This document shows, piece by piece, positions 14,546 to 59,686 of a stretch of DNA of 64,000 nt. How positions within the stretch are numbered: position 1 is the stretch's first letter; each line of letters begins with the position of its first letter. The translations under genes were made by a program, and so were the position numbers. The notes under the pieces are model-generated. The model ran no database searches, had not been told where the DNA came from, and saw only the letters and a program-made list of their open reading frames with translations. The stretch comes from Hirundichthys speculiger. Taxonomy: Eukaryota; Chordata; Actinopteri; Beloniformes; Exocoetidae. The stretch covers positions 1 to 64,000 of the forward strand of contig JAGFBZ010001934.1 of the NCBI GenBank assembly GCA_018398805.1, written 5' to 3'.

Positions 14546-17131
14546 AGAGGCGCCGAGTGGGGGTGGGCATACTTATTGCCCCCCGATTGGCCTGTACATT
14601 GGGGTTACTCGGTGGACGAGAGGGTAGCCTCTCTCCGCCTCCGGGTGGGGGGACGGGTTGACTGTTGTTTGTGCTACGCACCAATAGCAGTTCAGTACCC
14701 ACCCTTTTTGGAGTTTGGATGGAGTATGGGAAATGTTCCATCTGGGGATCCTCGTCTGCTGGGGGATTCATGCTCACGTGGGCAAGGTGAGACCTAGGGG
14801 TGTGGTTGGGAGGCAGGGCCCCCCCGATTGAGAGTGGTGTTTTGTTGCTTCTGTGCTCGTATGGATGTCCATAAACGAACACCTTTCAGGCATAAGAGTG
14901 TCCATGTGCAACCAGGACACTCTAGGCCGCAGTCATGATCGACTTCAAATCGTATCGTCGGACTTGCGGCATTCTTGGAATCGGGCGAAAGAGGGCGGAG
15001 CTTCAACTGATCACCACTGGTGGGGGGTGGCTCAGATGGTGGGGGGAGGATGCGGTCAGACCTGGAGGCCCAAACGTGTTGTGAGGTCTGCTGGGAAGTC
15101 TGGCAGAGTCTCCTGTCAGAAGGAGCTTTAACTCACTCCGGCGGAACTTCGATCATGCCGAGGGAGGGGGGGACATTGAGTCTGGGCTATGTTCCGGCCT
15201 CCATGTTGAGGCGGCCGACCGGAGCTGTGGCCGTAAGGTCGTTGGTGCCTGTGGGCGGCAATCCCAGAACTCGTTGGTGGACACCAGCAGTAGGATGCCT
15301 CAAGGAAGAAGGAGTCTATAAGGCCTTTTGGCTGTGGGACTGGAGGCAGCTGACAGGTATCGGCAGGCTAAGCGGGACGCGGCTTGGCGGTTGCTGAGGC
15401 AAAAACTCGGACATGGGAGGAGTTTGGAGAGGCCATGGAGAACGACTTCCGAACGTGAAAGATTTGGTCCAATCCGGGTCTCAGGAGGGGGAAGCAGTGC
15501 TCCATCAACTGTATACAGTGGGGATGGGGAGCTGTTGACCTCGACTCGGGACGTTGGGATCGTGGAGGGAATCTTTGAAGTCCTCAGCCGAGTCTCCAAT
15601 GAGGAAGCAGAGTCGGGGACTCAGGGTTGGACTTCTATCCTGGGCTGAGGTTGCCGAGGTTTAAAAAGTCCTCGGTGGCAGGGCCCCGGGTGTGGATGAG
15701 ATCCGCCCGGAGTTCTCAAGGCTCTGGATGCTGAGGGGCTGTCGTGGTTGACACGCCTCTGCAGCATCGCGTGGACGTCGGGGACAGTACCCTGGATTGG
15801 CAGACTGGGGTGGTGTCCCCCTTTTTAAAAAGGGGGACCGGAGGGTGTGTTCAACTACAGGGGGATCACACTCTCAGCCTCCCTGGGAAGGTCTATTCAG
15901 GGGTCCTGGAGAGGAGGGTCCGTCGGATAGTCGAAATCTCGGATTGAGGAGGAAGCAGTGTGGTTTTTCGTCCCGGCCGTGGAACGGTGGACCAGCTCTA
16001 CACCCTCTTCAGGGTCTTGGAGGGGGCATGGGAGTTCGCCCAACCAGTCTACATGTGTTTGTGGACTTGAGAAGGCGTTCGACCGTGTTCCCCGGGGATT
16101 CCTGTGGGGGGCTTCGGGAGTATGGGGTGCCGGACTCCCTTATAGGGCTGTCCGGTCCCTGTACGACCGGTGCCAGAGTTGGTCCGCATTGCCGCAGTAA
16201 GTCGGATTCGTTTCCAGTGAGGGTTGGACTCCGCCAAGGCTGCCCTTTGTCACCGATTCTGTTCATACTGATGGACAGAATCTAGGCGCAGTGAGGTGTC
16301 GAGGGGATCCGGTTCGGTGGCCTCAGGATTGGGTCTCTGCATTTGCAGATGATTGTGGTTCTGTTGGCTTCACGAGCCGTGATCTACAGCTCTCGATCGA
16401 TTCGCAGCCGTTGTGAAGCGGCTGGGATGAGAATCAGCACCTCCAATCCGAGACCATGGTCCTCAGCGGAAAAGGGTGGAGTGCCTTCTCCGGGTTGGGG
16501 ATGAGGTCTTCCCCAAGTGGAGGAGTTTAAGTATATCGGGATCTTGTTCACGAGTGAGGGAAGGATGGAGCGGGAGATGACAGACGGATCGGTGCGGCAT
16601 CTGAGTGATGCGGGTGCTGCGCCGGTCTGTTAGAAGGAGCTGAGTCGGAAGGCGAAGCTCTCGATTTACCGGTCGATCTACGTTCCACCCTCACCTATGG
16701 TCATGAGCTTTGGGTAGTGACCGAAAGAAAAGATCGCGGATACAAGCGGCTGAAATGAGCTTTTCGCAGGGTGGCCGGGTCTCCTTAGAGATAGGGTGAG
16801 AAGCTCGGTTCATCTGGGAGGGGCTCAGAGTAGAACCGCTGCTCCTCCGCATCGAGAGGAGCCAGATGAGGTGGCTCGGGCATCTGGTTAGGATGCCTCC
16901 TGGGCGCCTCCCTGGTGAGGTGTTCCGGGCACGGCCCACTGGGAGGAGACCCCGGGAAGACCCAGGACACGCTGGAGGGGACTATGTCTCTCGGCTGGCC
17001 GGGGAACGCCTGGGATCCCCCCAGAGGAGCTGGAGGAAGTGGCCGGGGAGAGGGGGGTCTGGGCTTCCTTACTCCGGCTGATGCCCCCGCGACCCGACCT
17101 CGGATAAGCGGAAGAAGACGGTACGGTACGG
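14546..17131 (+). mobile_element. Decayed 5'-truncated LINE (probable RTE clade), endonuclease plus RT
   Basis: Plus-strand frames, broken by many frameshifts and stops, give in order: an endonuclease remnant (around 14730-15010, including QDTLGRS and STDHH, the latter holding the expected catalytic SDH/TDH-like motif); an RT core (16040-16290) with EKAFDRVP, LREYGVPDSLI, SDSFPVRVGLRQGCPLSPIL and, at about 16342, FADD; and a C-terminal part (16860-17060) with QMRWLGHLVRMPPGRLPGEV. The 3' end passes through CGGATAAGCGGAAGAAGA into short ACGGT units. An 8-bp TAATTCTG occurs on both sides (14538-14545 and 17132-17139) and fits a target duplication. An intact protein would be close to 1000 residues; this copy is far from functional. 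Several shorter frames on either strand are shadows of it. Clade name is from recalled tail and motif style. Confidence 0.85.
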
Positions 17132-27286: not shown

Positions 27287-27908
27287 TAATGGGTGATATG
27301 GAAAAAAATCATATATCACGATATAGACTATTTTATATCACGATAACAATATATATCACGATATACCATAATAAAGTATGTTTTCAGTTATTCTCTGAAA
27401 AGTTTGACAAACATTTCATTGCTTACTTTTCAACTTTATTTTTAAAAGGACATTTAGCTGAACTGTCACAAACATACATTTTAGTGCAGCAAAAACAGGT
27501 AGGTACAGAGGTACAGTAGCTTTCACATTTTTTTAAAGTGCACAACAGTTTCTGAGAAGAAAAACACATTTTTGCACTGAAGTTAAGCTATAAAAAATAA
27601 ACACAAATTTTTTGAAATCTGTAACCTTGTAGTGCAAAGTTTGCAAACCAATATAAAGTGTCTAAAGTAAACATCAGGGTTGAAGAGAACTCTGTTTAAG
27701 GCATTAACCATGAATAAAAGTGCAAACATAAAAGGCTACTTTGTAGAAGTAGATATGATTCTATTAAATTTATCGTTGCAGGTTATTTAATTATATTAAA
27801 TATAATATAATATTATATTTGCTGTAATAATTGATAAAATTAGGTTAGAAACGATAGAAGAGAAATGGCACGATACACACTTTTCTATCGTCATATCGCC
27901 CAGCACTA
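27287..27908 (+). mobile_element. hAT-type MITE, copy A (622 bp)
   Basis: The flanks carry an identical 8-bp duplication, CCACATAC, at 27279-27286 and 27909-27916. The right end reads GATATCG-type words and CCCAGCACTA; the left end is a slightly shortened form (TAATGGGTGATATGG) of the expected TAGTGCTGGGCGATATGG. Subterminal ATATCACGATAT words repeat near the left end. The interior is AT-rich and non-coding. It is the same family as 33661-34297, in the reverse orientation. Here plus means that the ATATCACGATA-rich end is on the left. Confidence 0.9.
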
Positions 27909-33660: not shown

Positions 33661-34297
33661 TAGTGCTGGGCAATATGACGATATATATCGTGGGGACAAT
33701 ATAAAAGTGTGTATCCTGCCATTTCTCTTCTATCGTTTCTAACCTAATTTTATCAATTATTACAGCAAATATGTAATTAAATAACCTGCAATGATGAATT
33801 TGATAGAATCATATCTACTTCTACAAAGTAGCCTTTTATATTTGCACTTTTATTTATGGTTAATGCCTTCCTTAAACAGAGTTCTCTTCAACCCTGATGT
33901 TTACTTTAGACACTTTATATTGGTTTGCAAACTTTGCACTACAAGGTTACAGATTTCAGAAAGTTGAAAAATAATTTGTGTTTATTTTTTATAGCTGAAC
34001 TTCAGTGCAAAAATGTGTTTTTCCTCTCAGAAACTGTTGTGCACTTTAAAAAAAATGTGAAAGCTACTGTACCTCTGTACCTACCTGTTTTTGCTGCACT
34101 AAAATGTATGTTTGTGACAGTTCAGCTAAATGTCCTTTCAAAATAAAGTTGAAAAGTAAGCAATGAAATGTTTGTCAAACTTTTCAGAGAATAACTGAAA
34201 ACATACTTTATTATGGTATATCGTGATATATATCGTTATCGTGATATAAAACAGTCCATATCGTGATATATGATTTTTTCCATATCGCCCAGCACTA
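33661..34297 (-). mobile_element. hAT-type MITE, copy B (637 bp)
   Basis: Begins TAGTGCTGGGCAATATGACG, ends GATTTTTTCCATATCGCCC followed by AGCACTA. It is flanked by a perfect 8-bp duplication, CCCTCCAG, at 33653-33660 and 34298-34305. Compared with copy A at 27287-27908 the interior is the same sequence in reverse complement, for example the block around TTGGTTTGCAAACTTTGCAC. There is no coding sequence. The target duplication shows an independent insertion rather than a copy made by genomic inversion. Confidence 0.92.
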
Positions 34298-35297: not shown

Positions 35298-35303
35298 GTT
35301 TTA
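35298..35303 (+). repeat. Left target-site duplication GTTTTA
   Basis: This six-base word directly abuts TATGGAGG on its right side. The same word in direct orientation follows CCTCCATA at 50730. An A in front of it (AGTTTTA) also matches the right side if one base of the terminus is counted, so a 7-bp reading is possible. Confidence 0.75.
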
Positions 35304-35329
35304 TATGGAGGGTGAAAAGTGATAAAATT

Positions 35330-35600
35330 GAATAAATAAATATGTCATGAAATAAATAAATCTATCATGAAATACGTATCTTTAAATCTCCCATTAATTA
35401 ATTAAATGTATCAGAATTTTCATTAAAAACATCATTAAATAATTACATTTACCACTAAATAAACAAATATATCATTTAAATTATTAAATACATCAATAAA
35501 TAATTAAATATGTCATGAAATTATGAAATATGCAATTAATTAAATAAATGTCCCATTAAATAATTAAATCTACCTTTTTAAATAAAGAATTTTAATACTA
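35330..35600 (+). repeat. Subterminal ~20-bp degenerate tandem repeat
   Basis: About twelve loosely repeated units built on AAATAATTAAATATRTCAT, for example AAATAAATAAATCTATCATG, AAATAATTACATTTACCACT, AAATAATTAAATATGTCATG and AAATAATTAAATCTACC. The same array occurs inverted at about 50435-50705. Subterminal repeats like these often act as transposase binding sites; that role here is inference. Confidence 0.75.
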
Positions 35601-35809
35601 AAATATCCCTTTAAAGAAAACATCTATTTAAAAATATATTTAATTATTTCACAGTGTATTTATTTATTTCATGACTCCCGTGTTTGTGCTGTTGTCATTA
35701 AATGTGTTAAAACGTCAAACCCAATCATCAAACTCAGTGGGCGGGACTAACGTTGATCCTGTGAAATCAACTGTTTTGGTCTGTTGTCTGTTTTGTGTTG
35801 TGGTCAAAC

Positions 35810-35935
35810 ATGGCGGCTCCGTTCATGCAGGACCTGAATGAGCTCTGTGCTGAACTCATGAGAGACATTTTAGACCAAGCTAGGGACATAGAGGCTGGAG
35901 TTGCTCAACCACAGTTTGTAGTGGATAAAATGTAA
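35810..35935 (+). CDS. 41-codon frame, N-terminus of the element's putative transposase (left-arm copy)
   Basis: An ATG in the favourable context AAACATGGCGG opens a 41-codon frame ending in TAA. It starts MAAPFMQDLNELCAELMRDI and ends with QPQFVVDKM. The frame lies wholly inside the inverted arm, so it exists twice, reading inward from both ends. In the right arm the same frame, ignoring this single TAA, continues for about 55 more residues, but here it runs into satellite. The left copy is therefore only a duplicated gene fragment. It might still be transcribed from a promoter in the arm, because the sequence around the ATG (GCGGGACTAACG, CATGGCGGC) looks promoter-proximal. No catalytic residue is included. 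Function is inferred only from context. Confidence 0.5.
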   Translation: MAAPFMQDLNELCAELMRDILDQARDIEAGVAQPQFVVDKM

Positions 35936-36843
35936 CAGTTTATCGAAATACCTGCTGCCATATAGTGAGACGCCTGCTGCCATATAGTGAGACACCTGCT
36001 GCCACATAGTGAGATGCCTGCTGCCACATAGTGAGACGCCGGCTGCCATATAGTGAGACGCCTGCTGCCATATAGTGAGACGCCTGCTGCCACATAGTGA
36101 GACGCATGACATTTCCATGCAGGCTGCCTGCTGCCATATAGTGAGATGCCTGCTGCCACATAGTGAGACGCCTTTCCATGCTGCGCTCACTATGCTGCCT
36201 GCTGCCATATAGTGAGATGCCTGCTGCCACATAGTGAGACACCTGCTGTCTCACTATGACACCTGCTGCCATATAGTGAGACGTCTGCTGCCACATAGTG
36301 AGACACCTGCTGCCACATAGTGAGACACCTGCTGCCACATAGTGAGATGCCTGCTGCCACATAGTGAGACTGAGACGCCTGCTGCCACATAGTGAGACAC
36401 CTGCTGCCATATAGTGAGACGTCTGCTGCCACATAGTGAGACACCTGCTGCCACATAGTGAGACACCTGCTGCCACATAGTGAGATGCCTGCTGCCACAT
36501 AGTGAGACGAGACGCCTGCTGCCACATAGTGAGACGCCCTGCTGCCATATAGTGAGACGCCTGCTGCCACATAGTGAGACACCTGCTGCCACATAGTGAG
36601 ACGCCTGCTGCCACATAGTGAGACGCCTGCTGCCATATAGTGAGACGCCTGCTGCCACATAGTGAGATGCCTGCTGCCACATAGTGAGACACCTGCTGCC
36701 ACATAGTGAGACGCCTGCTGCCATATAGTGAGACGCCTGCTGCCACATAGTGAGACCCTGCTGACCATTTCCATGTCAGGCGTCTCACTATGCTGCCATA
36801 TAGTGAGACGCCTGCTGCCATATAGTGAGACGCCTGCTGCCAC

Positions 36844-36885
36844 ATAGTGAGACGCATGACATTTCCATGTCAGGCGTCTCACTAT
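36844..36885. repeat. Satellite palindrome module
   Basis: Centre GACATTTCCATGTC with arms reaching out into ATAGTGAGAC and GTCTCACTAT. One mismatch (GCATGA versus TCAGGCG) compared with the perfect form at 37378. An earlier, less complete module lies at about 36747-36790, 97 bp to the left. Confidence 0.85.
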
Positions 36886-37377
36886 GCTGCCACATAGTGA
36901 GACGCCTGCTGCCATATAGTGAGACGCCTGCTGCCATATAGTGAGACGCCTGCTGCCACATAGTGAGACACCTGCTGCCACATAGTGAGATGCCTGCTGC
37001 CACATAGTGAGACGCCTGCTGCCAAATAGTGAGATGCCTGCTGCCATATAGTGAGACGCCTGCTGCCACATAGTGAGACACCTGCTGCCACATAGTGAGA
37101 CGCCTGCTGCCACATAGTGAGACGCCTGCTGCCACATAGTGAGACGCCTGCTGCCACATAGTGAGACACCTGCTGCCACATAGTGAGACGCCTGCTGCCA
37201 CATAGTGAGACGCCTGCTGCCACATAGTGAGACGCCTGCTGCCACATAGTGAGACGCCTGCTGCCACATAGTGAGACGCCTGCTGCCACATAGTGAGACA
37301 CCTGCTGCCACATAGTGAGACGCCTGCTGCCACATAGTGAGATGCCTGCTGCCACATAGTGAGACACCTGCTGCCAC

Positions 37378-37419
37378 ATAGTGAGACGCATGACATTTCC
37401 ATGTCATGCGTCTCACTAT
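37378..37419. repeat. Perfect satellite palindrome, 19-bp arms, TTCC loop
   Basis: Left arm ATAGTGAGACGCATGACAT (37378-37396), loop TTCC, right arm ATGTCATGCGTCTCACTAT (37401-37419). The outer ten bases of each arm are satellite monomer; the inner nine are not. A second module starts 94 bp downstream, at 37472. Confidence 0.95.
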
Positions 37420-38175
37420 GCTGCCACATAGTGAGACGCCTGCTGCCATATAGTGAGACGCCTGCTGCCACATAGTGAGACGCATGACATTTCCATGTCA
37501 GGCGTCTCACTATGCTGCCACATAGTGAGACGCCTGCTGCCATATAGTGAGATGCCTGCTGCCACATAGTGAGACGCCTGCTGCCACATAGTGAGACACC
37601 TGCTGCCACATAGTGAGACCTGCTGCCACATAGTGAGACGCCTGCTGCCACATAGTGAGATGCCTGCTGCCATATAGTGAGACACCTGCTGCCACATAGT
37701 GAGACACCTGCTGCCACATAGTGAGACGCCTGCTGCCACATAGTGAGACCCTGCTGCCACATAGTGAGACGCCTGCTGCCACAGTGAGACGCCTGCTGCC
37801 ACATAGTGAGACACCTGCTGCCATATAGTGAGACGCCTGCTGCCACATAGTGAGACACCTGCTGCCACATAGTGAGACACCTGCTGCCACATAGTGAGAC
37901 ACCTGCTGCCACATAGTGAGATGCCTGCTGCCACATAGTGAGAGACGCCTGCTGCCACATAGTGAGACGCCTGCTGCCATATAGTGAGACGCCTGCTGCC
38001 ACATAGTGAGACACCTGCTGCCACATAGTGAGACCGCCTGCCACATAGTGAGACGCCTGCTGCCATATAGTGAGACGCCTGCTGCCACATAGTGAGATGC
38101 CTGCTGCCACATAGTGAGACCCTGCTGCCACATAGTGAGACGCCTGCTGCCATATAGTGAGACGCCTGCTGCCAC

Positions 38176-38217
38176 ATAGTGAGACGCATGACATTTCCAT
38201 GTCATGCGTCTCACTAT
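38176..38217. repeat. Perfect satellite palindrome, second identical copy
   Basis: Same 19-bp arms and TTCC loop as at 37378-37419. Again it is followed by a one-mismatch module exactly 94 bp downstream (38270). Further modules, perfect or decayed, begin near 38842, 39800, 40829, 41649, 41742, 42705, 44350, 44600, 45043, 46434 and 47392. Confidence 0.95.
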
Positions 38218-40240
38218 GCTGCCACATAGTGAGACGCCTGCTGCCATATAGTGAGACGCCTGCTGCCACATAGTGAGACGCATGACATTTCCATGTCAGG
38301 CGTCTCACTATGCTGCCACATAGTGAGACGCCTGCTGCCATATAGTGAGATGCCTGCTGCCACATAGTGAGACACCTGCTGCCACATAGTGAGACACCTG
38401 CTGCCACATAGTGAGATGCCTGCTGCCACATAGTGAGACGCCTGCTGCCACATAGTGAGATGCCTGCTGCCATATAGTGAGACACCTGCTGCCACATAGT
38501 GAGACGCCTGCTGCCACATAGTGAGACGCCTGCTGCCATATAGTGAGATGCCTGCTGCCACATAGTGAGACACCTGCTGCCACATAGTGAGACACCTGCT
38601 GCCACATAGTGAGATGCCTGCTGCCACATAGTGAGACGCCTGCTGCCACATAGTGAGATGCCTGCTGCCATATAGTGAGACGCCTGCTGCCACATAGTGA
38701 GACACCTGCTGCCACATAGTGAGACGCCTGCTGCCACATAGTGAGATGCCTGCTGCCACATAGTGAGACGCCATTTCCATGTCTGCCACTATGCTGCCAC
38801 ATAGTGAGACGCCTGCTGCCATATAGTGAGACGCCTGCTGCCACATAGTGAGACGCCTGACATTTCCATGTCATGCGTCTCACTATGCTGCCACATAGTG
38901 AGACGCCTGCTGCCATATAGTGAGATGCCTGCTGCCATATAGTGAGACGCCTGCTGCCACATAGTGAGACGCCTGCTGCCACATAGTGCGACACCTGCTG
39001 CCACATAGTGAGACGCCTGCTGCCACATAGTGAGACGCCTGCTGCCACATAGTGAGATGCCTGCTGCCACATAGTGAGACGCCTGCTGCCACATAGTGAG
39101 ACACCTGCTGCCACATAGTGAGACACCTGCTGCCACATAGTGAGACGCCTGCTGCCACATAGTGAGACGCCTGCTGCCACATAGTGAGATGCCTGCTGCC
39201 ATATAGTGAGACGCCTGCTGCCACATAGTGAGACACCTGCTGCCACTATGACACCTGCTGCCATATAGTGAGACGTCTGCTGCCATATAGTGAGACGCCT
39301 GCTGCCATATAGTGAGACACCTGCTGCCACATAGTGAGACCCTGCTGCCCACATAGTGAGACCCTGCTGCCACATAGTGAGACGCGAGACCCTGCTGCCA
39401 CATAGTGAGACACCTGCTGCCATATAGTGAGACGCCTGCTGCCACATAGTGAGACGCCTGCTGCCACATAGTGAGATGCCTGCTGCCACATAGTGAGACG
39501 CCTGCTGCCACATAGTGAGATGACACGCCTGCTGCCACATAGTGAGACACCTGCTGCCATATAGTGAGACGCCTGCTGCCACATAGTGAGACCCTGCTGC
39601 CACATAGTGAGACGCTGCTGCCACATAGTGAGACCCTGCTGCCACATAGTGAGACGCCTGCTGCCATATAGTGAGACGCCTGCTGCCACATAGTGAGACG
39701 CCTGCTGCCATATAGTGAGACGCCTGCTGCCACATAGTGAGACACCTGCTGCCACATAGTGAGACGCCTGCTGCCATAGTGAGACGCCTGCTGCCACATA
39801 GTGAGACGCATGACATTTCCATGTCAGGCGTCTCACTATGCTGCCACATAGTGAGACACCTGCTGCCACATAGTGAGATGCCTGCTGCCACATAGTGAGA
39901 CGCCTGCTGCCACAATAGTGAGACGCCTGCTGCCATATAGTGAGACGCCTGCTGCCACATAGTGAGACACCTGCTGCCACATAGTGAGACGCCTGCTGCC
40001 ACATAGTGAGACGCCTGCTGCCACATAGTGAGACACCTGCTGCCACATAGTGAGACGCCTGCTGCCACATAGTGAGACGCCTGCTGCCATATAGTGAGAC
40101 GCCTGCTGCCACATAGTGAGACGCCTGCTGCCACATAGTGAGATGCCCTGCTGCCATATAGTGAGACACCTGCTGCCACATAGTGAGACGCCTGCTGCCA
40201 CATAGTGAGATGCCTGCTGCCACATAGTGAGACACCTGCT

Positions 40241-40256
40241 GTCTCACTATGACACC
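40241..40256. repeat. Second type of inverted junction in the satellite
   Basis: Here GTCTCACTATGACACC inserts a half-monomer in inverse orientation without the TTCC centre. The same junction recurs at about 36248 and 49033, and decayed forms lie at about 39242 and 42139. It tends to be followed by CTGCTGCCATATAG and, in three of five cases, by GACGTC, a rare monomer variant. Confidence 0.8.
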
Positions 40257-43200
40257 TGCTGCCATATAGTGAGACGTCTGCTGCCATATAGTGAGACGTC
40301 TGCTGCCACATAGTGAGACACCTGCTGCCACATAGTGAGACACCTGCTGCCACATAGTGAGATGCCTGCTGCCACATAGTGAGACGAGACGCCTGCTGCC
40401 ACATAGTGAGACACCTGCTGCCATATAGTGAGACGCCTGCTGCCACATAGTGAGACGCCTGCTGCCACATAGTGAGATGCCTGCTGCCACATAGTGAGAC
40501 GCCTGCTGCCACATAGTGAGACGCCCTGCTGCCACATAGTGAGACACCTGCTGCCATATAGTGAGACGCCTGCTGCCACTATAGTGAGACCCTGCTGCCA
40601 CATAGTGAGACTGCCTGCTGCCACATAGTGAGACGCCTGCTGCCACATAGTGAGACACCTGCTGCCACATAGTGAGACGCCTGCTGCCATATAGTGAGAC
40701 ACCTGCTGCCACATAGTGAGACATGCCTGCTGCCATATAGTGAGACGCCTGCTGCCACATAGTGAGACACCTGCTGCCACATAGTGAGACGCCTGCTGCC
40801 ATATAGTGAGACGCCTGCTGCCACATAGTGAGACGCATGACATTTCCATGTCAGGCGTCTCACTATGCTGCCACATAGTGAGACGCCTGCTGCCACATAG
40901 TGAGATGCCTGCTGCCATATAGTGAGACGCCTGCTGCCACATAGTGAGACACCTGCTGCCACATAGTGAGACGCCTGCTGCCACATAGTGAGACGCCTGC
41001 TGCCACATAGTGAGACGCCTGCTGCCATATAGTGAGACGCCTGCTGCCACATAGTGAGACACCTGCTGCCACATAGTGAGACGCCTGCTGCCACATAGTG
41101 AGACGCCTGCTGCCACATAGTGAGACGCCTGCTGCCACATAGTGAGACGCCTGCTGCCATATAGTGAGACGCCTGCTGCCACATAGTGAGACGCCTGCTG
41201 CCACATAGTGAGACGCCTGCTGCCAAATAGTGAGATGCCTGCTGCCATATAGTGAGACACCTGCTGCCACATAGTGAGACGCCTGCTGCCACATAGTGAG
41301 ATGCCTGCTGCCACATAGTGAGACACCTGCTGCCACATAGTGAGATGCCTGCTGCCACATAGTGAGACACCTGCTGCCACATAGTGAGACGCCTGCTGCC
41401 ACATAGTGAGACGCCTGCTGCCACATAGTGAGATGCCTGCTGCCACATAGTGAGACGCCTGCTGCCACATAGTGAGACGCAGACGCCTGCTGCCACATAG
41501 TGAGACACCTGCTGCCACATAGTGAGACGCCTGCTGCCACATAGTGAGACGCCTGCTGCCACATAGTGACACCTGCTGCCACATAGTGAGACGCCTGCTG
41601 CCATATAGTGAGACACCTGCTGCCACATAGTGAGATGCCTGCTGCCACATAGTGAGACGCATGACTGCCATGTCATGCTGCCTCACTATGCTGCCACATA
41701 GTGAGACGCCTGCTGCCATATAGTGAGACGCCTGCTGCCACATAGTGAGACGCATGACATTTCCATGTCAGGCGTCTCACTATGCTGCCACATAGTGAGA
41801 CGCCTGCTGCCATATAGTGAGACGCCTGCTGCCATATAGTGAGACACCTGCTGCCACATAGTGAGACGCCTGCTGCCACATAGTGAGACACCTGCTGCCA
41901 CATAGTGAGACGCCTGCTGCTGCCACATAGTGAGACCCTGCTGCCACATAGTGAGATGCCTGCTGCCCACATAGTGAGACGCCTGCTGCCACATAGTGAG
42001 ACGCCTGCTGCCACATAGTGAGACGCCTGCTGCCACATAGTGAGACGCCTGCTGCCACATAGTGAGACGCCTGCTGCCACATAGTGAGATGCCTGCTGCC
42101 ATATAGTGAGACGCCTGCTGCCACATAGTGAGACACCTGCTGCCTCACTATGACACCTGCTGCCACATAGTGAGACGCCTGCTGCCATATAGTGAGACGC
42201 CTGCTGCCACATAGTGAGACACCTGCTGCCACATAGTGAGACACCTGCTGCCACATAGTGAGATGCCTGCTGCCACATAGTGAGACGAGACGCCTGCTGC
42301 CACATAGTGAGACACCTGCTGCCATATAGTGAGACGCCTGCTGCCACATAGTGAGACGCCTGCTGCCACATAGTGAGATGCCTGCTGCCACATAGTGAGA
42401 CGCCTGCTGCCACATAGTGAGATGAGACGCCTGCTGCCACATAGTGAGACACCTGCTGCCATATAGTGAGACGCCTGCTGACACATAGTGAGACGCCTGC
42501 TGCCACATAGTGAGACGCCTGCTGCCACATAGTGAGACGCCTGCTGCCACATAGTGAGACACCTGCTGCCATATAGTGAGACACCTGCTGCCACATAGTG
42601 AGACGCCTGCTGCCATATAGTGAGACGCCTGCTGCCACATAGTGAGACGCCTGCTGCCACATAGTGAGACGCCTGCTGCCATATAGTGAGACGCCTGCTG
42701 CCACATAGTGAGACGCATGACATTTCCATGTCAGGCGTCTCACTATGCTGCCACATAGTGAGACACCTGCTGCCACATAGTGAGATGCCTGCTGCCACAT
42801 AGTGAGACGCCTGCTGCCACATAGTGAGACGCCTGCTGCCATATAGTGAGACGCCTGCTGCCACATAGTGAGACGCCTGCTGCCACATAGTGAGACGCCC
42901 TGCTGCCACATAGTGAGACGCCTGCTGCCACATAGTGAGACACCTGCTGCCACATAGTGAGACACCTGCCTAGTGAGACTGCTGCCACATAGTGAGATGC
43001 CTGCTGCCACATAGTGAGACGCCTGTTGCCACATAGTGAGACCTGCTGCTGCCACATAGTGAGATGCCTGCTGCCATATAGTGAGACGCCTGCTGCCACA
43101 TAGTGAGACGCCTGCTGCCACATAGTGAGATGCCTGCTGCCACATAGTGAGACACCTGCTGCCACATAGTGAGACACCTGCTGCCACATAGTGAGACGCC

Positions 43201-46200
43201 TGCTGCCATATAGTGAGACGCCTGCTGCCACATAGTGAGACACCTGCTGCCACATAGTGAGACACCTGCTGCCACATAGTGAGATGCCTGCTGCCACATA
43301 GTGAGACGCAGTGAGACGCCTGCTGCCACATAGTGAGACCTGCTGCCATATAGTGAGACGCCTGCTGCCACATAGTGAGACGCCTGCTGCCACATAGTGA
43401 GACGCCTGCTGCCACATAGTGAGACGCCTGCTGCCACATAGTGAGACGCCTGCTGCCACATAGTGAGACACCTGCTGCCATATAGTGAGACGCCTGCTGC
43501 CACATAGTGAGACGCCTGCTGCCATATAGTGAGACGCCTGCTGCCACATAGTGAGACGCCTGCTGCCACATAGTGAGACGCCTGCTGCCATATAGTGAGA
43601 CGCCTGCTGCCACATAGTGAGACGCCTGCTGCCATATAGTGAGACACCTGCTGCCACATAGTGAGACGCCTGCTGCCACATAGTGAGACACCTGCTGCCA
43701 CATAGTGAGACGCCTGCTGCCACATAGTGAGACGCCTGCTGCCACATAGTGAGACGCCTGCTGCCACATAGTGAGACGCATGACATTTCCCTGCTGCCAC
43801 TATAGTGAGACACCTGCTGCCATAGTGAGACGCCTGCTGCCATGTGAGACACTATGCTGCCACATAGTGAGACGCCTGCTGCCATATAGTGAGACTGCCT
43901 GCTGCTGCCACATAGTGAGACGCCTGCTGCCACATAGTGAGACGCCTGCTGCCACATAGTGAGACGCACTGCCACTAGTGAGACTGCTGCCATAGTGAGA
44001 CGCCTGCTGCCACATAGTGAGACGCCTGCTGCCACATAGTGAGACGCCTGCTGCCACATAGTGAGATGCCTGCTGCCATATAGTGAGACACCTGCTGCCA
44101 CATAGTGAGACACCTGCTGCCACATAGTGAGACACCTGCTGCCACATAGTGAGACGCTGCCTGCTGCCATAGTGAGATGACATAGTGCTGCTGCCATATA
44201 GTGAGACGCCTGCTGCCATATAGTGAGACACCTGCTGCCACATAGTGAGACGCCTGCTGCCACATAGTGAGTGAGACGCCTGCTGCCACATAGTGAGACG
44301 CCTGCTGCCATAGTGAGACGCCTGCTGCCATATAGTGAGACGCCTGCTGCCACATAGTGAGACGCATGACATTTCCATGTCAGATGCGTCTGCCTATGAG
44401 ATGCTGCCACATAGTGAGACGCCTGCTGCCATATAGTGAGACGCCTGCTGCCACATAGTGAGACGCATGCATGCCACATAGTGAGCCATCTCACTATGCT
44501 GCCACATAGTGAGACGCCTGCTGCCATATAGTGAGACGCCTGCTGCCATATAGTGAGACACCTGCTGCCACATAGTGAGACGCCTGCTGCCACATAGTGA
44601 GACGCATGACATTTCCATGTCAGGCGTCTCACTATGCTGCCACATAGTGAGACGCCTGCTGCCATATAGTGAGATGCCTGCTGCCACATAGTGAGACACC
44701 TGCTGCCACATAGTGAGATGCCTGCTGCCACATAGTGAGACGCCTGCTGCCACATAGTGAGATGCCTGCTGCCATATAGTGAGATGCCTGCTGCCACATA
44801 GTGAGACGCCTGCTGCCATATAGTGAGACGCCTGCTGCCACATAGTGAGACACCTGCTGCCACATAGTGAGACACCTGCTGCCACATAGTGAGACGCCTG
44901 CTGCCACATAGTGAGATGCCTGCTGCCCATATAGTGAGACACCCTGCTGCCACATAGTGAGACGCCTGCTGCATTTCCATGTGAGACGTGCTGCACTATG
45001 CTGCCACATAGTGAGACGCCTGCTGCCACATAGTGAGACGCCTGCATTTCCATGTCAGGCGTCTCACTATGCTGCCACATAGTGAGACGCCTGCTGCCAT
45101 ATAGTGAGATGCCTGCTGCCACATAGTGAGACGCCTGCTGCCACATAGTGAGACGCCTGCTGCCACATAGTGAGACACCTGCTGCCACATAGTGAGACAC
45201 CTGCTGCCACATAGTGATAGTGAGACGCCTGCTGCCACATAGTGAGACGCCTGCTGCCAAATAGTGAGACGCCTGCTGCCACATAGTGAGATGCCTGCTG
45301 CCATATAGTGAGACGCCTGCTGCCACATAGTGAGACACCTGCTGCCCATAGTGAGACACCTGCTGCCACATAGTGAGACGCCTGCTGCCATATAGTGAGA
45401 TGCCTGCTGCCATATAGTGAGACACCTGCTGCCACATAGTGAGACGCCTGCTGCCCATAGTGAGACCCTGCTGCCACATAGTGAGACACCTGCTGCCCAC
45501 ATAGTGAGACGCCTGCTGCCACATAGTGAGACGCCTGCTGCCATATAGTGAGACCCTGCTGCCACATAGTGAGACCTGCTGCCATGTCATGCCTATGCTG
45601 CCACATAGTGAGACGCCTGCTGCCATATAGTGAGACGCCTGCTGCCACATAGTGAGACGCCTGCCATGCCATAGTGAGACTGCCTGTGAGCTGCCACATA
45701 GTGAGACGCCTGCTGCCATATAGTGAGATGCCTGCTGCCACATAGTGAGACGCCTGCTGCCATGCACATAGTGAGACGCCTGCTGCCACATAGTGAGACG
45801 CCTGCTGCCACATAGTGAGACACCCTGCTGCCACATAGTGAGACACCTGCACAGTGAGACCCTGCTGCCACATAGTGAGACGCCTGCTGCTGCCACATAG
45901 TGAGACGCCTGCTGCCACATAGTGAGACGCCCATGCTGCCCACATAGTGAGACGCTGCCACATGCACCTGCCACATAGTGAGACGCCTGCTGCCACATAG
46001 TGAGACGCCTGCTGCCACATAGTGAGACGCCTGCTGCCATATAGTGAGACGCCTGCTGCCACATAGTGAGACACTGCTGCCACATAGTGAGACCTGCTGC
46101 ACATAGTGAGACGCTGCTGCCATAGTGCCATATAGTGAGACACCTGCTGCCATATAGTGAGACGCCTGCTGCCACATAGTGAGACGCTGCACATAGTGCT

Positions 46201-49200
46201 GCCACATAGTGAGACGCCTGCTGCCACATAGTGAGACGCCTGCTGCCACATAGTGAGACACCTGCTGCCATATAGTGAGACGCCTGCTGCTGCCACATAG
46301 TGAGACGCCTGCTGCCATATAGTGAGACGCCTGCTGCCATATAGTGAGACGCCTGCTGCCCACTAGTGAGACCTGCTGCCACATAGTGAGACGCCTGCTG
46401 CCATATAGTGAGACGCCTGCTGCCACATAGTGAGACGCATGAGACATTTCCATGTCAGGCGTCTCACTATGCTGCCACATAGTGAGACGCCTGCTGCCTG
46501 CTGCCATATAGTGAGACGCCTGCTGCCACATAGTGAGACACCTGCTGCCATATAGTGAGACACCTGCTGCCACATAGTGAGATGCCTGCTGCTGCCACAT
46601 AGTGAGACGAGACGCCTGCTGCCACATAGTGAGACACTGCTGCTGCCATATAGTGAGACGCCTGCTGCCACATAGTGAGACGCCTGCTGCCACATAGTGA
46701 GACTGCCTGCTGCCACAATAGTGAGACACCTGCTGCCACATAGTGAGACGCCTGCTGCCATATAGTGAGACACCTGCTGCCACATAGTGAGATGCCTGCT
46801 GCCACATAGTGAGACGCCTGCTGCCACATAGTGAGACGCCTGCTGCCACATAGTGAGACGCCTGCTGCCACATAGTGAGACGCCTGCTGCCATATAGTGA
46901 GACGCCTGCTGCCACATAGTGAGACGCCTTCTGCTGCCATATAGTGAGACACCTGCTGCCATATAGTGAGACGCCTGCTGCCACATAGTGAGACGCCTGC
47001 TGCCAAATAGTGAGATGCCTGCTGCCATATAGTGAGACACCTGCTGCCACATAGTGAGACACCTGCTGCCACATAGTGAGACGCCTGCTGCCACATATAG
47101 TGAGACGCTGCTGCCACAGTGAGACCCTGCTGCCACATAGTGAGACGCCTGCTGCCACATAGTGAGACACCTGCTGCCACATAGTGAGACGCCTGCTGCC
47201 ACATAGTGAGACACCTGCTGCCACATAGTGAGACGCCTGCTGCCACATAGTGAGACGCCTGCTGCCCATATAGTGAGAGCCTGCTGCCATATAGTGAGAC
47301 GCCTGCTTTCCATGTCATGCGTCTCACTATGCTGCCACATAGTGAGACGCCTGCTGCCATATAGTGAGACGCCTGCTGCCACATAGTGAGACGCCTGACA
47401 TTTCCATGTCAGTGCGTCTCACTATGCTGCCACATAGTGAGACGCCTGCTGCCATATAGTGAGATGCCTGCTGCCATAGTGAGACACCTGCTGCCACATA
47501 GTGAGAGACGCCTGCTGCCACATAGTGAGACGCCTGCTGCACATAGTGAGACCCTGCTGCCACATAGTGAGACGCCTGCTGCCACATAGTGAGACGCCTG
47601 CTGCCACATAGTGAGAGACGCCTGCTGCCATATAGTGAGATGCTGCTGCTGCCACATAGTGAGATGCCTGCTGCCATATAGTGAGACACCTGCTGCCACA
47701 TAGTGAGACGCCTGCTGCCACATAGTGAGACGCCTGCTGCCATATAGTGAGACACCTGCTGCCACATAGTGAGACACCTGCTGCCACATAGTGAGACGCC
47801 TGCTGCCACATAGTGAGACGCCTGCTGCTGCCATATAGTGAGACGCCTGCTGCCATATAGTGAGACGCCTGCTGCCATATAGTGACGCCTGCTGCCACAT
47901 AGTGAGACACCTGCTGCCACATAGTGAGATGCCTGCTGCCACATAGTGAGACGCCTGCTGCCACATAGTGAGACGCCTGCTGCCAGTGATGAGACCTGCT
48001 GCCATATAGTGAGACACCTGCTGCCACATAGTGAGACGCCTGCTGCCACATAGTGAGACGCTGCCACATAGTGAGACCCTGCTGCCCCATAGTGAGACGC
48101 TGCTGCACATGCTGCCATATAGTGAGATGCCTGCTGCCACATAGTGAGACACCTGCTGCCACATAGTGAGACGCCTGCTGCCATGTGATGCTGCCACATA
48201 GTGAGACGCCTGCTGCCACATAGTGAGACGCCTGCTGCCACATAGTGAGACGCCTATGCTGCCAATAGTGAGACTGCCCTGCTGCCATATAGTGAGACGC
48301 CTGCTGCCACATAGTGAGACAACCTGCTGCCCATAGTGAGACGCCTGCTGCCACATAGTGAGACGCCTGCTGCCACACATAGTGAGACGCCTGCTGCCAT
48401 ATAGTGACATAGTGAGACGCCTGCTGCCACATAGTGAGACACCTGCTGCCACATAGTGATGCTGCCATAGTGAGACGCCTGCTGCCCATAGTGAGACACC
48501 TGCTGCCACATAGTGAGACGCCTGCTGCCACATAGTGAGACGCCTGCTGCCACATAGTGAGACATGCCTGCTGCCATAGTGAGACCTGCTGCCACATAGT
48601 GAGACGCCTGCTGCCACATAGTGAGACACCTGCTGCCACATAGTGAGATGCCTGCTGCTGCCACATAGTGAGACACCTGCTGCCACATAGTGAGACACAT
48701 GTGAGCCTGCTGCCACATAGTGAGATGCCTGCTGCCATATAGTGAGACGCCTGCTGCCACATAGTGAGACCCTGCTGCCACATAGTGAGACACCTGCTGC
48801 CACATAGTGAGATGCGCCTGCTGCCACATAGTGAGACGCCTGCTGCCACATAGTGAGACGCTGCTGCCACATAGTGAGACGCCTGCTGCCCACATAGTGA
48901 GATGCCTGCTGCTGCCACATAGTGAGACGCCTGCTGCCACATAGTGAGACGCTGCTGCTGCCACATAGTGAGATGCCTGCTGCCACATAGTGCTGCCACA
49001 GATGCCTGCTGCCACATAGTGAGACACCTGCTGTCTCACTATGACACCTGCTGCCATATAGTGAGACGCCTGCTGCCACATAGTGAGACACCTGCTGCCA
49101 TATAGTGAGACACCTGCTGCCACATAGTGAGACGCGCTATCACGGTATTTTTTTTTTGAAGGCACAACTGGGTGTTAACCACATTTTCTAATCATTTAGA

Positions 49201-49419
49201 GAGGAACTGCTGCAGTAAATTGGCTCAGAATGACCTATTTTACTGTCACGAGAAGTGAATATTGTAGAAAAACATTCATATCTACACTAGTATTAATACA
49301 GGTTTGCATGGCCTCACAAAATGATGCTATTTACAAAGAGGTGGCACTCATGATTCTGATTAAGTGAAGGAATCAGAATGAATGATAGTTGCAGTTAAAA
49401 TACAGAACCCTTTTATTTT

Positions 49420-49722
49420 TCAAATTTTGCAAACAACTTGAAAAAACATATTTTGTAAAAAATCAACACTAACTAAACAATGTAAACAACGTTCTAAAAT
49501 TGTAGCCGCGGGAGGCAACACCAGCCTGCTGTTGCCTCCCGCGGCTACAACTTTAGCTCGGCAACATTTGCAGATTATTGTAGTTTGTTGGACGTCGTCT
49601 TTTTTAAATCCAAAGAACTTCCACACGACAGATACGGCTCCTCGTTCAGGAAGAAGTTCCTCAGTCTCATGTTGCCGTTCTGGAGCTTCCACTTCGGGAT
49701 TTTCGCTGTTTGCAGCCATCAT
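49420..49722 (-). pseudogene. BED zinc-finger N-terminus of a hAT transposase, disrupted
   Basis: From the double ATG at 49717-49722 the minus strand reads MMAANSENPEV, then an acidic linker, then SVVWKFFGFKKDD, TTIICKCCRAKVVAAGGN. The W-x-F-F aromatic start and the C-x2-C pair of a BED finger are present. The expected continuation to the H-x4-H pair is lost. At that point the DNA folds back on itself: the codons encoding VAAGGN are followed by their own inverted copy (49501-49549), after which the frame is nonsense (SRLVLPPAATIL) up to a stop. A full-length relative would be about 600 residues with an RNase H-like DDE domain. Not functional. Confidence 0.75.
49501..49549. repeat. Perfect 19-bp inverted repeat inside the BED finger
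   Basis: Arms TGTAGCCGCGGGAGGCAAC (49501-49519) and GTTGCCTCCCGCGGCTACA (49531-49549) around an 11-base loop. GC-rich, so it would form a stable hairpin. It marks the deletion junction of the hAT derivative. Confidence 0.95.
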
Positions 49723-49923
49723 CGTTGTTGTGCTTCCAGTGCAACTGCAAAACAGTCCCCTGTCAAACAATGTTCTGCGGCACTTAGGTTCCGCCGTGCG
49801 GCGTTCCCAACATTGTGTACGCTACAGTACATACTCACCGGTATTACAGTATATGCAAAAATTTATATCATAAGAAAAATAAACACCGGTATTCAGTATG
49901 AACAGGTATACTGCCCAGCACTA

Positions 49924-50224
49924 GTACATGATGCTCCAGAACATGCTTCGGTATGTCGAAAGCTGGTCGACCGGGTCCAGGTGTTTCAGGTTGTGTGGTG
50001 GAGAACCGCTGAAGTACTTCTCGTAAATTTGTAATCACTCTGTGGTCGATGTCTTGGTTTGAGAGTGCCGAAATAACTCCAATTATTTCGATAAACTGTT
50101 ACATTTTATCCACTACAAACTGTGGTTGAGCAACTCCAGCCTCTATGTCCCTAGCTTGGTCTAAAATGTCTCTCATGAGTTCAGCACAGAGCTCATTCAG
50201 GTCCTGCATGAACGGAGCCGCCAT
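49924..50224 (-). pseudogene. Transposase-like N-terminal region of the composite element (IS3EU-like)
   Basis: From ATG at 50222-50224 the minus strand gives the same 41 codons as the left arm, then one TAA (50099-50101), then an uninterrupted in-frame continuation QFIEIIGVISALSNQDIDHR, TNLREVLQRFSTTQP, GPGRPAFDIPKHVLEHHV. It stops where the hAT element is inserted at 49923. The R-x-F-s-T...GRP-x-FDIP pattern is what I associate with the region ahead of the helix-turn-helix in fish integrase-like transposases of the IS3EU kind. No catalytic D, D or E remains in the window. The single stop in an otherwise clean ~95-residue frame suggests a recently inactivated gene. An intron at GTAACAG is a less likely explanation. 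Family assignment is inference. Confidence 0.6.
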
Positions 50225-50729
50225 GTTTGACCACAACACAAAACAGACAACAGACCAAAACAGTTGATTTCACAGGATCAACGTTAGTCCCGCCCACTGA
50301 GTTTGATGATTGGGTTTGACGTTTTAACACATTTAATGACAACAGCACAAACACGGGAGTCATGAAATAAATAAATACACTGTGAAATAATTAAATATAT
50401 TTTTAAATAGATGTTTTCTTTAAAGGGATATTTTAGTATTAAAATTCTTTATTTAAAAAGGTAGATTTAATTATTTAATGGGACATTTATTTAATTAATT
50501 GCATATTTCATAATTTCATGACATATTTAATTATTTATTGATGTATTTAATAATTTAATGATATATTTGTTTATTTAGTGGTAAATGTAATTATTTAATG
50601 ATGTTTTTAATGAAAATTCTGATACATTTAATTAATTAATGGGAGATTTAAAGATACGTATTTCATGATAGATTTATTTATTTCATGACATATTTATTTA
50701 TTTAATTTTGTCACTTTTCATCCTCCATA
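50084..50729 (-). repeat. Right inverted arm of the composite element
   Basis: Reverse complement of 35304-35950 with about four differences in total. Beyond its inner limit at 50084 the sequence continues into the transposase-like frame, which the left arm lacks. So the right arm plus its continuation is the ancestral sequence, and the left arm is probably an inverted duplicate of it. Confidence 0.95.
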
Positions 50730-50735
50730 GTTTTA
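50730..50735 (+). repeat. Right target-site duplication GTTTTA
   Basis: Direct copy of 35298-35303, abutting CCTCCATA. Confidence 0.75.
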
Positions 50736-58404: not shown

Positions 58405-59686
58405 CACTGTCTGGCCAAAAAAAAAAGTCACCACCTGGATTTAACTAAGCAAATAGGTACGAGCCTCCTATTGGATAATTAATGCATGGGAGATTATCTT
58501 TTAGCTGGCAACAAGTTATTTAACCCTAACTGGTGCAATGAGTTGCTTCTCATTTCATTTCACACAACAACCATGTCAAAGACACGTCCTGTGGTCGTGG
58601 AAGAGATGTTGGTCTGTTTGAGAAGGGTCAAATCATTGGCATCAAGTAGAAAAAATATCTAAGGAGATTGCAGAAACTACCAAAATTGGGTTAAGAACTT
58701 TCCAACGCATTATTAAAAACTGGAATGATAGTGGGGACCCATTGTCTTCGAGGAGGAAATATGGCCGGAAAAAAAATCCTAAATGATCATGATTGGCGAT
58801 CACTTAAACTTTGGTGAGATCAAATTGAAGACAGTAGAACTCAGGGCTGTTTAATAGTGAAAGTGAGAGCATTTCCACACACAATGCTAAGGGAACTCCA
58901 GGGATTGGGACTGAACAGCTGTGTAGCCATAAGAAAACCACTAATCAGTGAGGCTAACTGGAAAAAAAGGCTTCAGTCTGCTAGGGAGCATAAAGATTGG
59001 ACTCTGGATCAATGGAAGAAGGTCATGTGGTCTGATGAGTCCAGATTGACCCTGTTCCAGAGTGATGGGAGCATCAGGGCAGAAGTCAGAAGAGATGCTT
59101 CCATCATGCCTAGTGTCTACTGTACCAGCCTGTGGGGGCAGTGTTCTGATCTGGGGTTGCTGCAGTTGGTCAGGTCCAGGTTCAGCAACAGTATGAGCTC
59201 AAAGAATGAGGTCAGCTGACTACATGAATATACTGAATGACCAGGTTATTACATCAATGGATTTATTCTTACCTGATGCCACATGATCTTTACCGGCCCC
59301 CCAACACAGACAAATTTGTTGATGCTCATCATTAGGGGCCAATCATGGGCCCCTATCATCCTTTACCCCCCCTTTTCGGCTCCCCAGCCAGGATTCACCG
59401 GGCTCAAATAGTAAAAGACTGGTTCAGGGAGCATGAGACATCATTTTCACACATGGATCGGCCACCACAGAGTCCAGACCTGAACCCCATTGAGAATTTT
59501 TGGGATGTTCTGGAGAAGGCTTTGGACATTAAAAAAAAAAAAAGATCAAATTCATCAACTTAGTATGAGATTTATTTTTTCCACAAGTAAGCTCAGGACA
59601 TGTCATTCACACAAATGTGCATGCTAAGAGATGAAGCAAAAACGAGCAGATTAATTTAATTCGGACTTTTTTGCCCTTGACTTCAG
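58405..59686 (+). mobile_element. Tc1-like transposon, full length but decayed
   Basis: The left end CACTGTCTGGCCAAAAAAAA then AGTCACCACC is a typical Tc1 terminus. The right end is decayed (GGACTTTTTTGCCCTTGAC at 59663-59681). About 1.28 kb, the normal Tc1 length. The plus strand carries a broken transposase: MSK-like start at about 58574, TKIGLRTFQRIIKNW (helix-turn-helix region), then in another frame DWTLDQWKKVMWSDESRLTL with the second catalytic aspartate, and in a third [13 protein letters not shown] and [17 protein letters not shown] with the catalytic glutamate. At least four frameshifts or stops separate these pieces. About 100 bp around 59290-59390 is replaced or rearranged. Confidence 0.88.
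58574..59566 (+). pseudogene. Tc1 transposase pseudogene
   Basis: Encodes, in several frames, the paired-type helix-turn-helix DNA-binding region and the DDE catalytic core of a Tc1 transposase (intact relatives are about 340 residues and cut and paste at TA). Catalytic landmarks still visible are the aspartate in WSDES (about 59033) and the glutamate in NPIENFW (about 59490). The first catalytic aspartate region is altered. The two longest surviving frames are 58857-59219 and 59345-59563. An in-frame stop follows the early GIK-like segment near 58648. Not functional. Confidence 0.85.

Follow-up and report, generated by a model that had tools for sequence, protein, structure and literature searches.

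Structure of the satellite-bearing unit

The window is a stretch of 64,000 nucleotides from the fish Hirundichthys speculiger (contig JAGFBZ010001934.1, here C1934; assembly GCA_018398805.1), and all genome searches were run against this one assembly (1.04 Gb, 3,002 contigs). At 35304-50729 it holds a bounded unit composed of two inverted arms, a satellite array and other DNA. The arms, at 35304-35950 on the forward strand and 50084-50729 on the reverse strand, measure 647 and 646 bp and are identical at 643 of 647 positions, with one gap. The hexamer GTTTTA lies immediately outside both of them (35298-35303 and 50730-50735); one given 6-bp match has a chance probability of 1/4096. Both the 6-bp direct duplication and the inverted arms of ~646 bp were part of the original prediction for this locus, and both are borne out. 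The termini of the unit read TATGG..CCATA. A bounded mobile unit with a satellite block as its cargo is supported. We consider it probable, at roughly 0.83 for the whole explanation including the build and movement proposed below, that the unit descends from an IS3EU/GingerRoot-type family and is a non-autonomous cut-and-paste DNA transposon. Its parts are listed here, with repeats called by Tandem Repeats Finder (TRF).

35298..35303, no strand: left target-site duplication, GTTTTA
35304..35950, + strand: satellite-side arm, 647 bp, made of the parent 445-bp terminal inverted repeat and a further 202 bp (5' leader and start of transposase exon 1)
35331..35569, no strand: degenerate AT-rich repeats of ~20 bp within the arm (TRF, period 20, 67% matches), mirrored at 50465-50703
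35951..49135, + strand: 22-bp satellite array, consensus CCTGCTGCCACATAGTGAGACG, 13,185 bp (TRF)
49136..49923, no strand: remnant of a dispersed nested element, truncated at the array side
49924..50083, - strand: continuation of transposase exon 1, ~160 bp
50084..50729, - strand: filler-side arm, 646 bp, a mosaic of both arm types
50730..50735, no strand: right target-site duplication, GTTTTA

Over 35951-49135, TRF reports a period of 22, 592 copies and 83% matches. An anchor count yields 546 monomers, 191 of them equal to the consensus and 228 with one mismatch. The block is thus a long, homogeneous tandem array of the satellite type. It extends over 13.2 kb, and 419 of the 546 anchored monomers have at most one mismatch to the consensus. 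Variation falls mostly in columns 11, 21 and 22 and less in columns 1 and 2 (512 monomers with at most four mismatches). The predicted copy number of ~600 agrees with the TRF count, but the idea that the array occupies the entire space between the arms is rejected: the 948 bp beside the right arm (49136-50083) are not satellite and consist of ~786 bp of nested element and ~160 bp of the parent exon 1.

The arms are long and inverted, as in fold-back elements. The only tandem repeats that TRF finds inside them are the degenerate AT-rich ~20-bp pattern of the outer arm; the 22-bp satellite lies between the arms. A stop codon is present at arm position 630-632 in the satellite-side arm. The start of transposase exon 1 (MAAPFMQDLNEL...) occurs in both arms, at 35810-35935 and in mirror image at 50099-50224. 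With both copies directed inward, a promoter in this region would be oriented towards the array.

The parent transposon family

When the left arm was searched against the assembly, the best 40 of 80 candidates were scored and 42 matches were listed. Many of these listed matches belong to an element of ~2.64 kb, which consists of a 647-bp arm, ~160 bp of coding exon, a ~787-bp nested element, ~600 bp and a 445-bp inverted repeat. Members of the family end in TATGG..CCATA, have inverted repeats of 445 bp and are flanked by target duplications of 6 bp. Among ten standard elements with both ends (copies with one end missing or truncated in the fetched DNA were left out of this count), the duplication is exact in seven, matches at five of six positions in two and hardly matches in one (C302). 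TA..TA termini are found at both ends in 9/10, and C74 has one end that reads CCATG. The original prediction held that a mobile unit should have arms elsewhere with 6-bp duplications, and such arms do occur elsewhere in the assembly.

A nested-element query of 948 bp (40 scored places) matches up to query position 948 at 17 places, only from ~3 to 757-807 at 22, and from 1 to 769 in C1781. No arm was found beside the nested element in the 12 fetched of those 22 shorter matches. The nested element is a dispersed element. It is missing beside the exon in three copies (C142, C2863 and C30). The fetched parts of C142 and C2863 contain an integrase-like exon, and the exon pieces of C2863 match PF24764 rva_4 (4.7e-38) and PF00665 rve (7e-7, below the Pfam cut-off). 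The integrase core of the transposase is found in the relative C2863 and is not encoded by the unit in the window. IS3EU families always have TA..TA termini and usually 6-bp duplications, as they are characterised in PMC10045372. The termini, the duplications and the integrase-type exons of the relatives make this family a good fit to IS3EU/GingerRoot.

The unit was originally described as a fold-back transposon. Its long inverted arms agree with that description, but the fold-back form is a secondary state. The inverted repeats of the common ~2.64-kb element measure 445 bp, and substitution of one end by a copy of the other best accounts for the 647-bp arms.

At C2530:610947-614336, three arm copies stand in direct tandem with a spacing of 1,363-1,365 bp, each followed by part of the nested element. 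This is a tandem array in formation from the standard element itself.

Satellite-loaded units at other loci

The satellite adjoins arm sequence in seven contigs: C1934 (the window), C443, C47, C2408, C980, C64 and C1781. The outer ends of the two arms in C443 are 13.6 kb apart. C980 contains ~14 kb of array (sampled at five inner places), and in C64 the array extends from the arm to the contig end over ~14 kb (sampled). In C2408 it was found at four sampled places between contig base 1 and the arm at 15420, while in C1781 it runs off the contig end after ~4 kb. As the original prediction anticipated, several arm copies carry the same satellite in apparently different amounts. Five distinct filler-side flanks (the window, left of C47, right of C443, right of C980, and C1781) and four distinct satellite-side flanks (the window, right of C2408, left of C443 and left of C64) can be told apart. 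Since there are five distinct filler-side flanks, the sequences suggest loaded units at about five loci. Matching 6-bp duplications of loaded units were found at two loci, GTTTTA at locus A (the window) and GGTTTG at locus B.

Locus B is split between two contigs. GGTTTG ends the left flank of C47 and starts the right flank of C2408. With the two half-flanks joined as one query (best 40 of 119 candidates scored), C47 and C2408 are matched at 100%. The left half is also present at nine paralogous places with 75-85% identity, and in 9/9 of these the right half comes next at a distance of at most ~1 kb, with order and strand unchanged; the right half alone occurs at at least 29 more places. Because of the shared hexamer, the joined-flank matches and the paralogous order, the left flank of C47 and the right flank of C2408 are best read as one locus, apparently within or next to an NLR-type gene. 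In the right half, a fish-specific NACHT-associated (FISNA) domain is encoded; it was found with the joined translations of both flanks as the query, and the match covers the right part.

The right flank of C47 is the left flank of the unit in the window (1505 bp aligned, with 4 gap openings and no mismatch). For this reason, the best reading of contig C47 is a misjoin within the array, where the left flank of B has been joined to the left flank of A in inverted orientation. C47 (531538-548235) was considered as an independent intact unit and rejected, given this right flank, the lack of a shared duplication and the pairing of its left flank with C2408. The end of contig C463 has the same window flank (5 mismatches, 4 gap openings). 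Its arm shows the satellite-type variants at all positions but 630, and we take C463 for a further copy of locus A whose tip is of poor quality. C443 may represent a similar join. At C980:1559600-1560500, the edge of the array is garbled, with satellite mixed with other sequence, and looks like a consensus artefact. Array lengths are provisional because of the C47 misjoin, the possible C443 join and the garbled C980 edge; the two ends of the unit in the window do share their hexamer.

The junctions of the unit recur between contigs. The arm-array junctions of C443, C1934 and C2408 agree letter for letter, and a genome-wide search at up to two mismatches gave no other match (a backward control gave 1 match). 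The array-filler junction exists in two forms. One form, present in C443 and C980, leads from the array through ~20 nt of filler, the inverted repeat from position 383 and ~600 bp to the nested element. The other, present in the window, C47 and C1781, has array and nested element directly side by side.

Arm lineage and probable movement of the unit

In ten alignment columns, two or more of the satellite-unit arms depart from the state shown by most of the 19 standard arms. The variants 20T, 27G and 319A are common to the satellite-side arms at the left of the window unit, the right of C47, the left of C443 and the right of C2408. Filler-side arms have 9A in 4/4 and 114C in 3/4. All nine satellite-unit arms have 421A and 630T; the latter creates the stop codon and is also present in three standard arms (C747, C590 and C2186). 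In a tree of the arms, from which C463 was left out, 9/9 satellite-unit arms form one clade and 8/9 group by end and not by locus. The left arm of C64 and the right arm of the window unit are mosaics of arm types, as expected of conversion between arms. The end-specific variants shared across loci and the grouping of arms by end fit a loaded unit that has moved as a whole.

A number of observations weigh against this account. The clade is moderately supported (0.767), and the satellite-side arm of C64 sits with the filler-side arms in the tree. The arm-array junctions of C47 and C64 are unlike the other three, with irregular neighbouring repeats. The two ends of C443 (3/6) and of C47 (0/6) lack matching duplications; the mismatch in C47 is explained by the misjoin, and that in C443 may have a similar cause. 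In C980 the array runs leftward into the garbled zone without an arm. The arm of C64 has its outer 26 bp lost or garbled, that of C1781 is left only in pieces, and both contigs run off their ends.

Some of these features could arise if the assembler had joined an unrelated array and unrelated arms. The inverted join of loci A and B in C47, the garbled edge in C980, the mismatched ends of C443 and the fact that C64, C1781 and C2408 start or stop inside arrays all point in this direction. However, an artefact of this kind would have to produce the exact 6-bp duplication common to both ends of the window unit, the identical arm-array junction in three contigs, the recurring array-filler junctions and the variants shared among the arms of each side. 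We regard it as highly improbable.

Spread by segmental duplication or by ectopic exchange between arrays, without transposition, would account for the lack of matching duplications in C443 and C47, and the mosaic state of two arms indicates that exchange between arms occurs. However, up to 1.5 kb beyond the arms no similarity among loaded loci was detected at E 1e-20, save for the right flank of C47 and C463, which match the left flank of the window unit. The boundaries also fall at TATGG/CCATA, and the 6-bp duplications of A and B differ in sequence. Such a spread is very unlikely, and transposition of the loaded unit is preferred.

Distribution and turnover of the satellite

For a census of the assembly we used a 38-base dimer with up to three mismatches on both strands, together with a backward control. 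The dimer matches 2,284 times (1,336 forward and 948 reverse), the control 0 and 0 times. The ~100 listed places are all in C47, C64, C443, C477 and C980. The window contains 371 matches and C477 79 (3.5% of 2,284); values for the other six arrays were extrapolated from sampled densities, with 1.7 to 5.2 kb sampled per array. The eight known arrays predict 2,359 matches (1,361 forward and 998 reverse) versus 2,284 observed, and thus plausibly account for nearly all of the assembled satellite; a small remainder elsewhere or unassembled arrays are possible. Seven of the eight adjoin an arm. The sole armless array found, in C477, is 2.2-2.3 kb long and has the same monomer, and its flanks show no similarity to the element. 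A satellite widespread without arms, which would have spoken against the original prediction, is therefore not what the census returns. C197, a weak hit of a DNA search, was rejected as a further array, as it is a different minisatellite. Since that search passes over very common words, it missed the array of the window itself and was kept out of the judgement on rarity.

Exact blocks of 191 bp and 275 bp are common to the window array and those of C443 and C2408, respectively, at shifted positions. The longest block in a monomer-shuffled control (n=20), built for C443 only, is 160 bp. In seven other comparisons with the window the longest blocks measure 125-151 bp, inside the range of the control. 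Arrays therefore seem to turn over faster than arms.

The window array contains 23 inverted CTCACTATG motifs and 19 ATTTCCATG motifs. Palindrome-like inserts (ATTTCCATG / CTCACTATG) are repeated at 36767-36869, 37395-37497, 38193-38295 and 41682-41784, often paired 94 bp apart. Neither C477 nor the filler-side ends of arrays in which ATTTCCATG was sought contain such inserts. The sole CpG of the monomer, at columns 21-22, appears in matched contexts as CG 268, CA 113 and TG 64 times, a pattern expected of methylated CpG decay.

Proposed build of the unit and origin of the monomer

The simplest series of steps that we infer comprises end loss, repair, deletion and movement in trans. In a first step, 382 bp would have been lost from the outside of the 445-bp end of the common ~2.64-kb element. 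A repair event would then have added a copy of the opposite end (positions 1-647) together with a tandem array. The product would be arm, array, ~20 nt of filler, the inverted-repeat remnant (from 383) and the rest of the element, with this junction kept in C443 and C980. A later deletion may have placed the array against the nested element, as seen in the window, C47 and C1781. Transposase acting in trans could then move the entire 13-15 kb unit, while unequal exchange would keep altering the arrays and conversion would mix both arms.

The array was probably captured and not born from the element's own sequence, and the armless C477 array is a candidate for its source or a relative of it. We find this capture of a pre-existing array somewhat favoured. 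An origin by capture, with expansion afterwards, seems at least as probable as birth in place and on balance likelier, because the match in the parent interior spans only 11 bp and an armless array exists.

Birth in place would require that a short stretch of the element was duplicated in tandem and then expanded, as proposed for the Tetris element, with C477 seeded from the resulting array. The interior of three longer relatives does contain CATAGTGAGAC, an exact 11-nt match to the monomer whose score is reached by 8, 9 and 3 of 300 shuffles, and by our estimate nearly all satellite copies of the assembly reside within loaded units. However, the match is short and, read in the direction that starts from the arm, lies on the other strand. 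It is absent from C2186, the ~2.64-kb element examined, where the best score is 7.5, a value that 252/300 shuffles reach. The flanks of C477, as noted, do not resemble the element. C477 also lacks ATTTCCATG (0 in 2.3 kb versus 19 in the window's 13.2 kb), a weak point since the sampled filler-side ends of C443, C980, C47 and C1781 lack it as well. We consider birth in place unlikely. The original prediction of an array grown inside a transposon is thus supported as regards the satellite-bearing mobile unit, while growth in place is uncertain in light of the 11-bp match and the armless C477 array.

Beside the C477 array itself there is an 11-nt near-match with one mismatch, which is a weak lead, as is the exact 11-nt match; its score is reached by 13/300 shuffles. 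It is possible, though we advance it tentatively, that a C477-type host minisatellite was captured once during end repair and that the transposon then became the main disperser of 13-15 kb blocks, including one next to an NLR-type gene exon. As the 5' leader and start codon of the transposase are present in both arms in inward orientation, the array might be transcribed from both sides.

Relation to known systems

It is established that transposons carry tandem repeats, with examples among Tetris, miniature inverted-repeat transposable elements (MITEs) and Helitrons. Tetris / TIR-220 of Drosophila virilis, as presented in PMC4079207, is non-autonomous and has up to 66 copies of ~220 bp. It resembles the unit described here in its long inverted repeats, element-tied tandem repeats and long satellite-like arrays. 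In contrast, its native repeats lie within the inverted repeats and its duplications are 8-10 bp, whereas the unit in the window has 6-bp duplications and an array of probably foreign monomers between its arms. The amplification in Tetris is said to have possibly disrupted the element (PMC4079207), while the loaded unit appears to have moved. By our arithmetic (66 x ~220 bp), the Tetris array reaches ~14.5 kb.

Work on miDNA4, a MITE of Xenopus, was reportedly carried out by Scalvenzi and Pollet in 2014. As summarised in a review (PMC12628747), capture of a pre-existing tandem repeat was proposed for miDNA4, and its array length varies. This element is a Tc1/mariner relative, whereas we find an IS3EU-type carrier, a candidate armless counterpart and two junction forms in one genome. 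In the Pacific oyster, the Helitron-linked CgiSat01 is given as up to 89 monomers of ~170 bp alongside standalone arrays, and its link to Helitrons is discussed in the same source (PMC8268682); we calculate an array of ~15 kb. The carrier of CgiSat01 is a rolling-circle element, whereas the carrier here is of the DDE type, has target duplications and contains most of the copies found of its 22-bp monomer. The size of a ~13-kb array thus has precedent in Tetris and the oyster. A minisatellite likewise lies inside an inverted-repeat MITE of Porphyromonas gingivalis, but this is a bacterial system (PMC4596501).

The family of the unit shares TA..TA ends, usually 6-bp duplications and an integrase-type transposase with IS3EU/GingerRoot as outlined in PMC10045372, where that outline includes no large satellite cargo and the unit in the window carries 13.2 kb. 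Satellites with similarity to IS3EU are indicated for CgiSat35 and CgiSat47 (PMC8268682) and for half of TCAST10 (PMC5844308). No satellite-bearing IS3EU element in fish is named among the titles and abstract openings listed by our literature searches. As far as we have seen, the less usual features are a carrier of the DDE type flanked by target duplications, a satellite that resides mostly within this carrier and several assembly stages in one genome.

Transposon seeding of satellite DNA has mostly been argued from end states. Here, one genome appears to combine the parent element, both junction forms, a single armless array and units that carry the satellite at several loci. With these steps side by side, capture, movement of a large cargo and array turnover become separately testable. 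Arrays of this kind also present a practical hazard, as they invite contig misjoins.

Other features of the window

Upstream of the unit, a dispersed repeat is present as an inverted pair (27290-27764 and 33803-34291, 94.5% identical) with relatives in L050 and L056. Downstream, 58818-59219 holds a fragment of a Tc1/Tc3-type transposase (PF01498, 4.2e-8).

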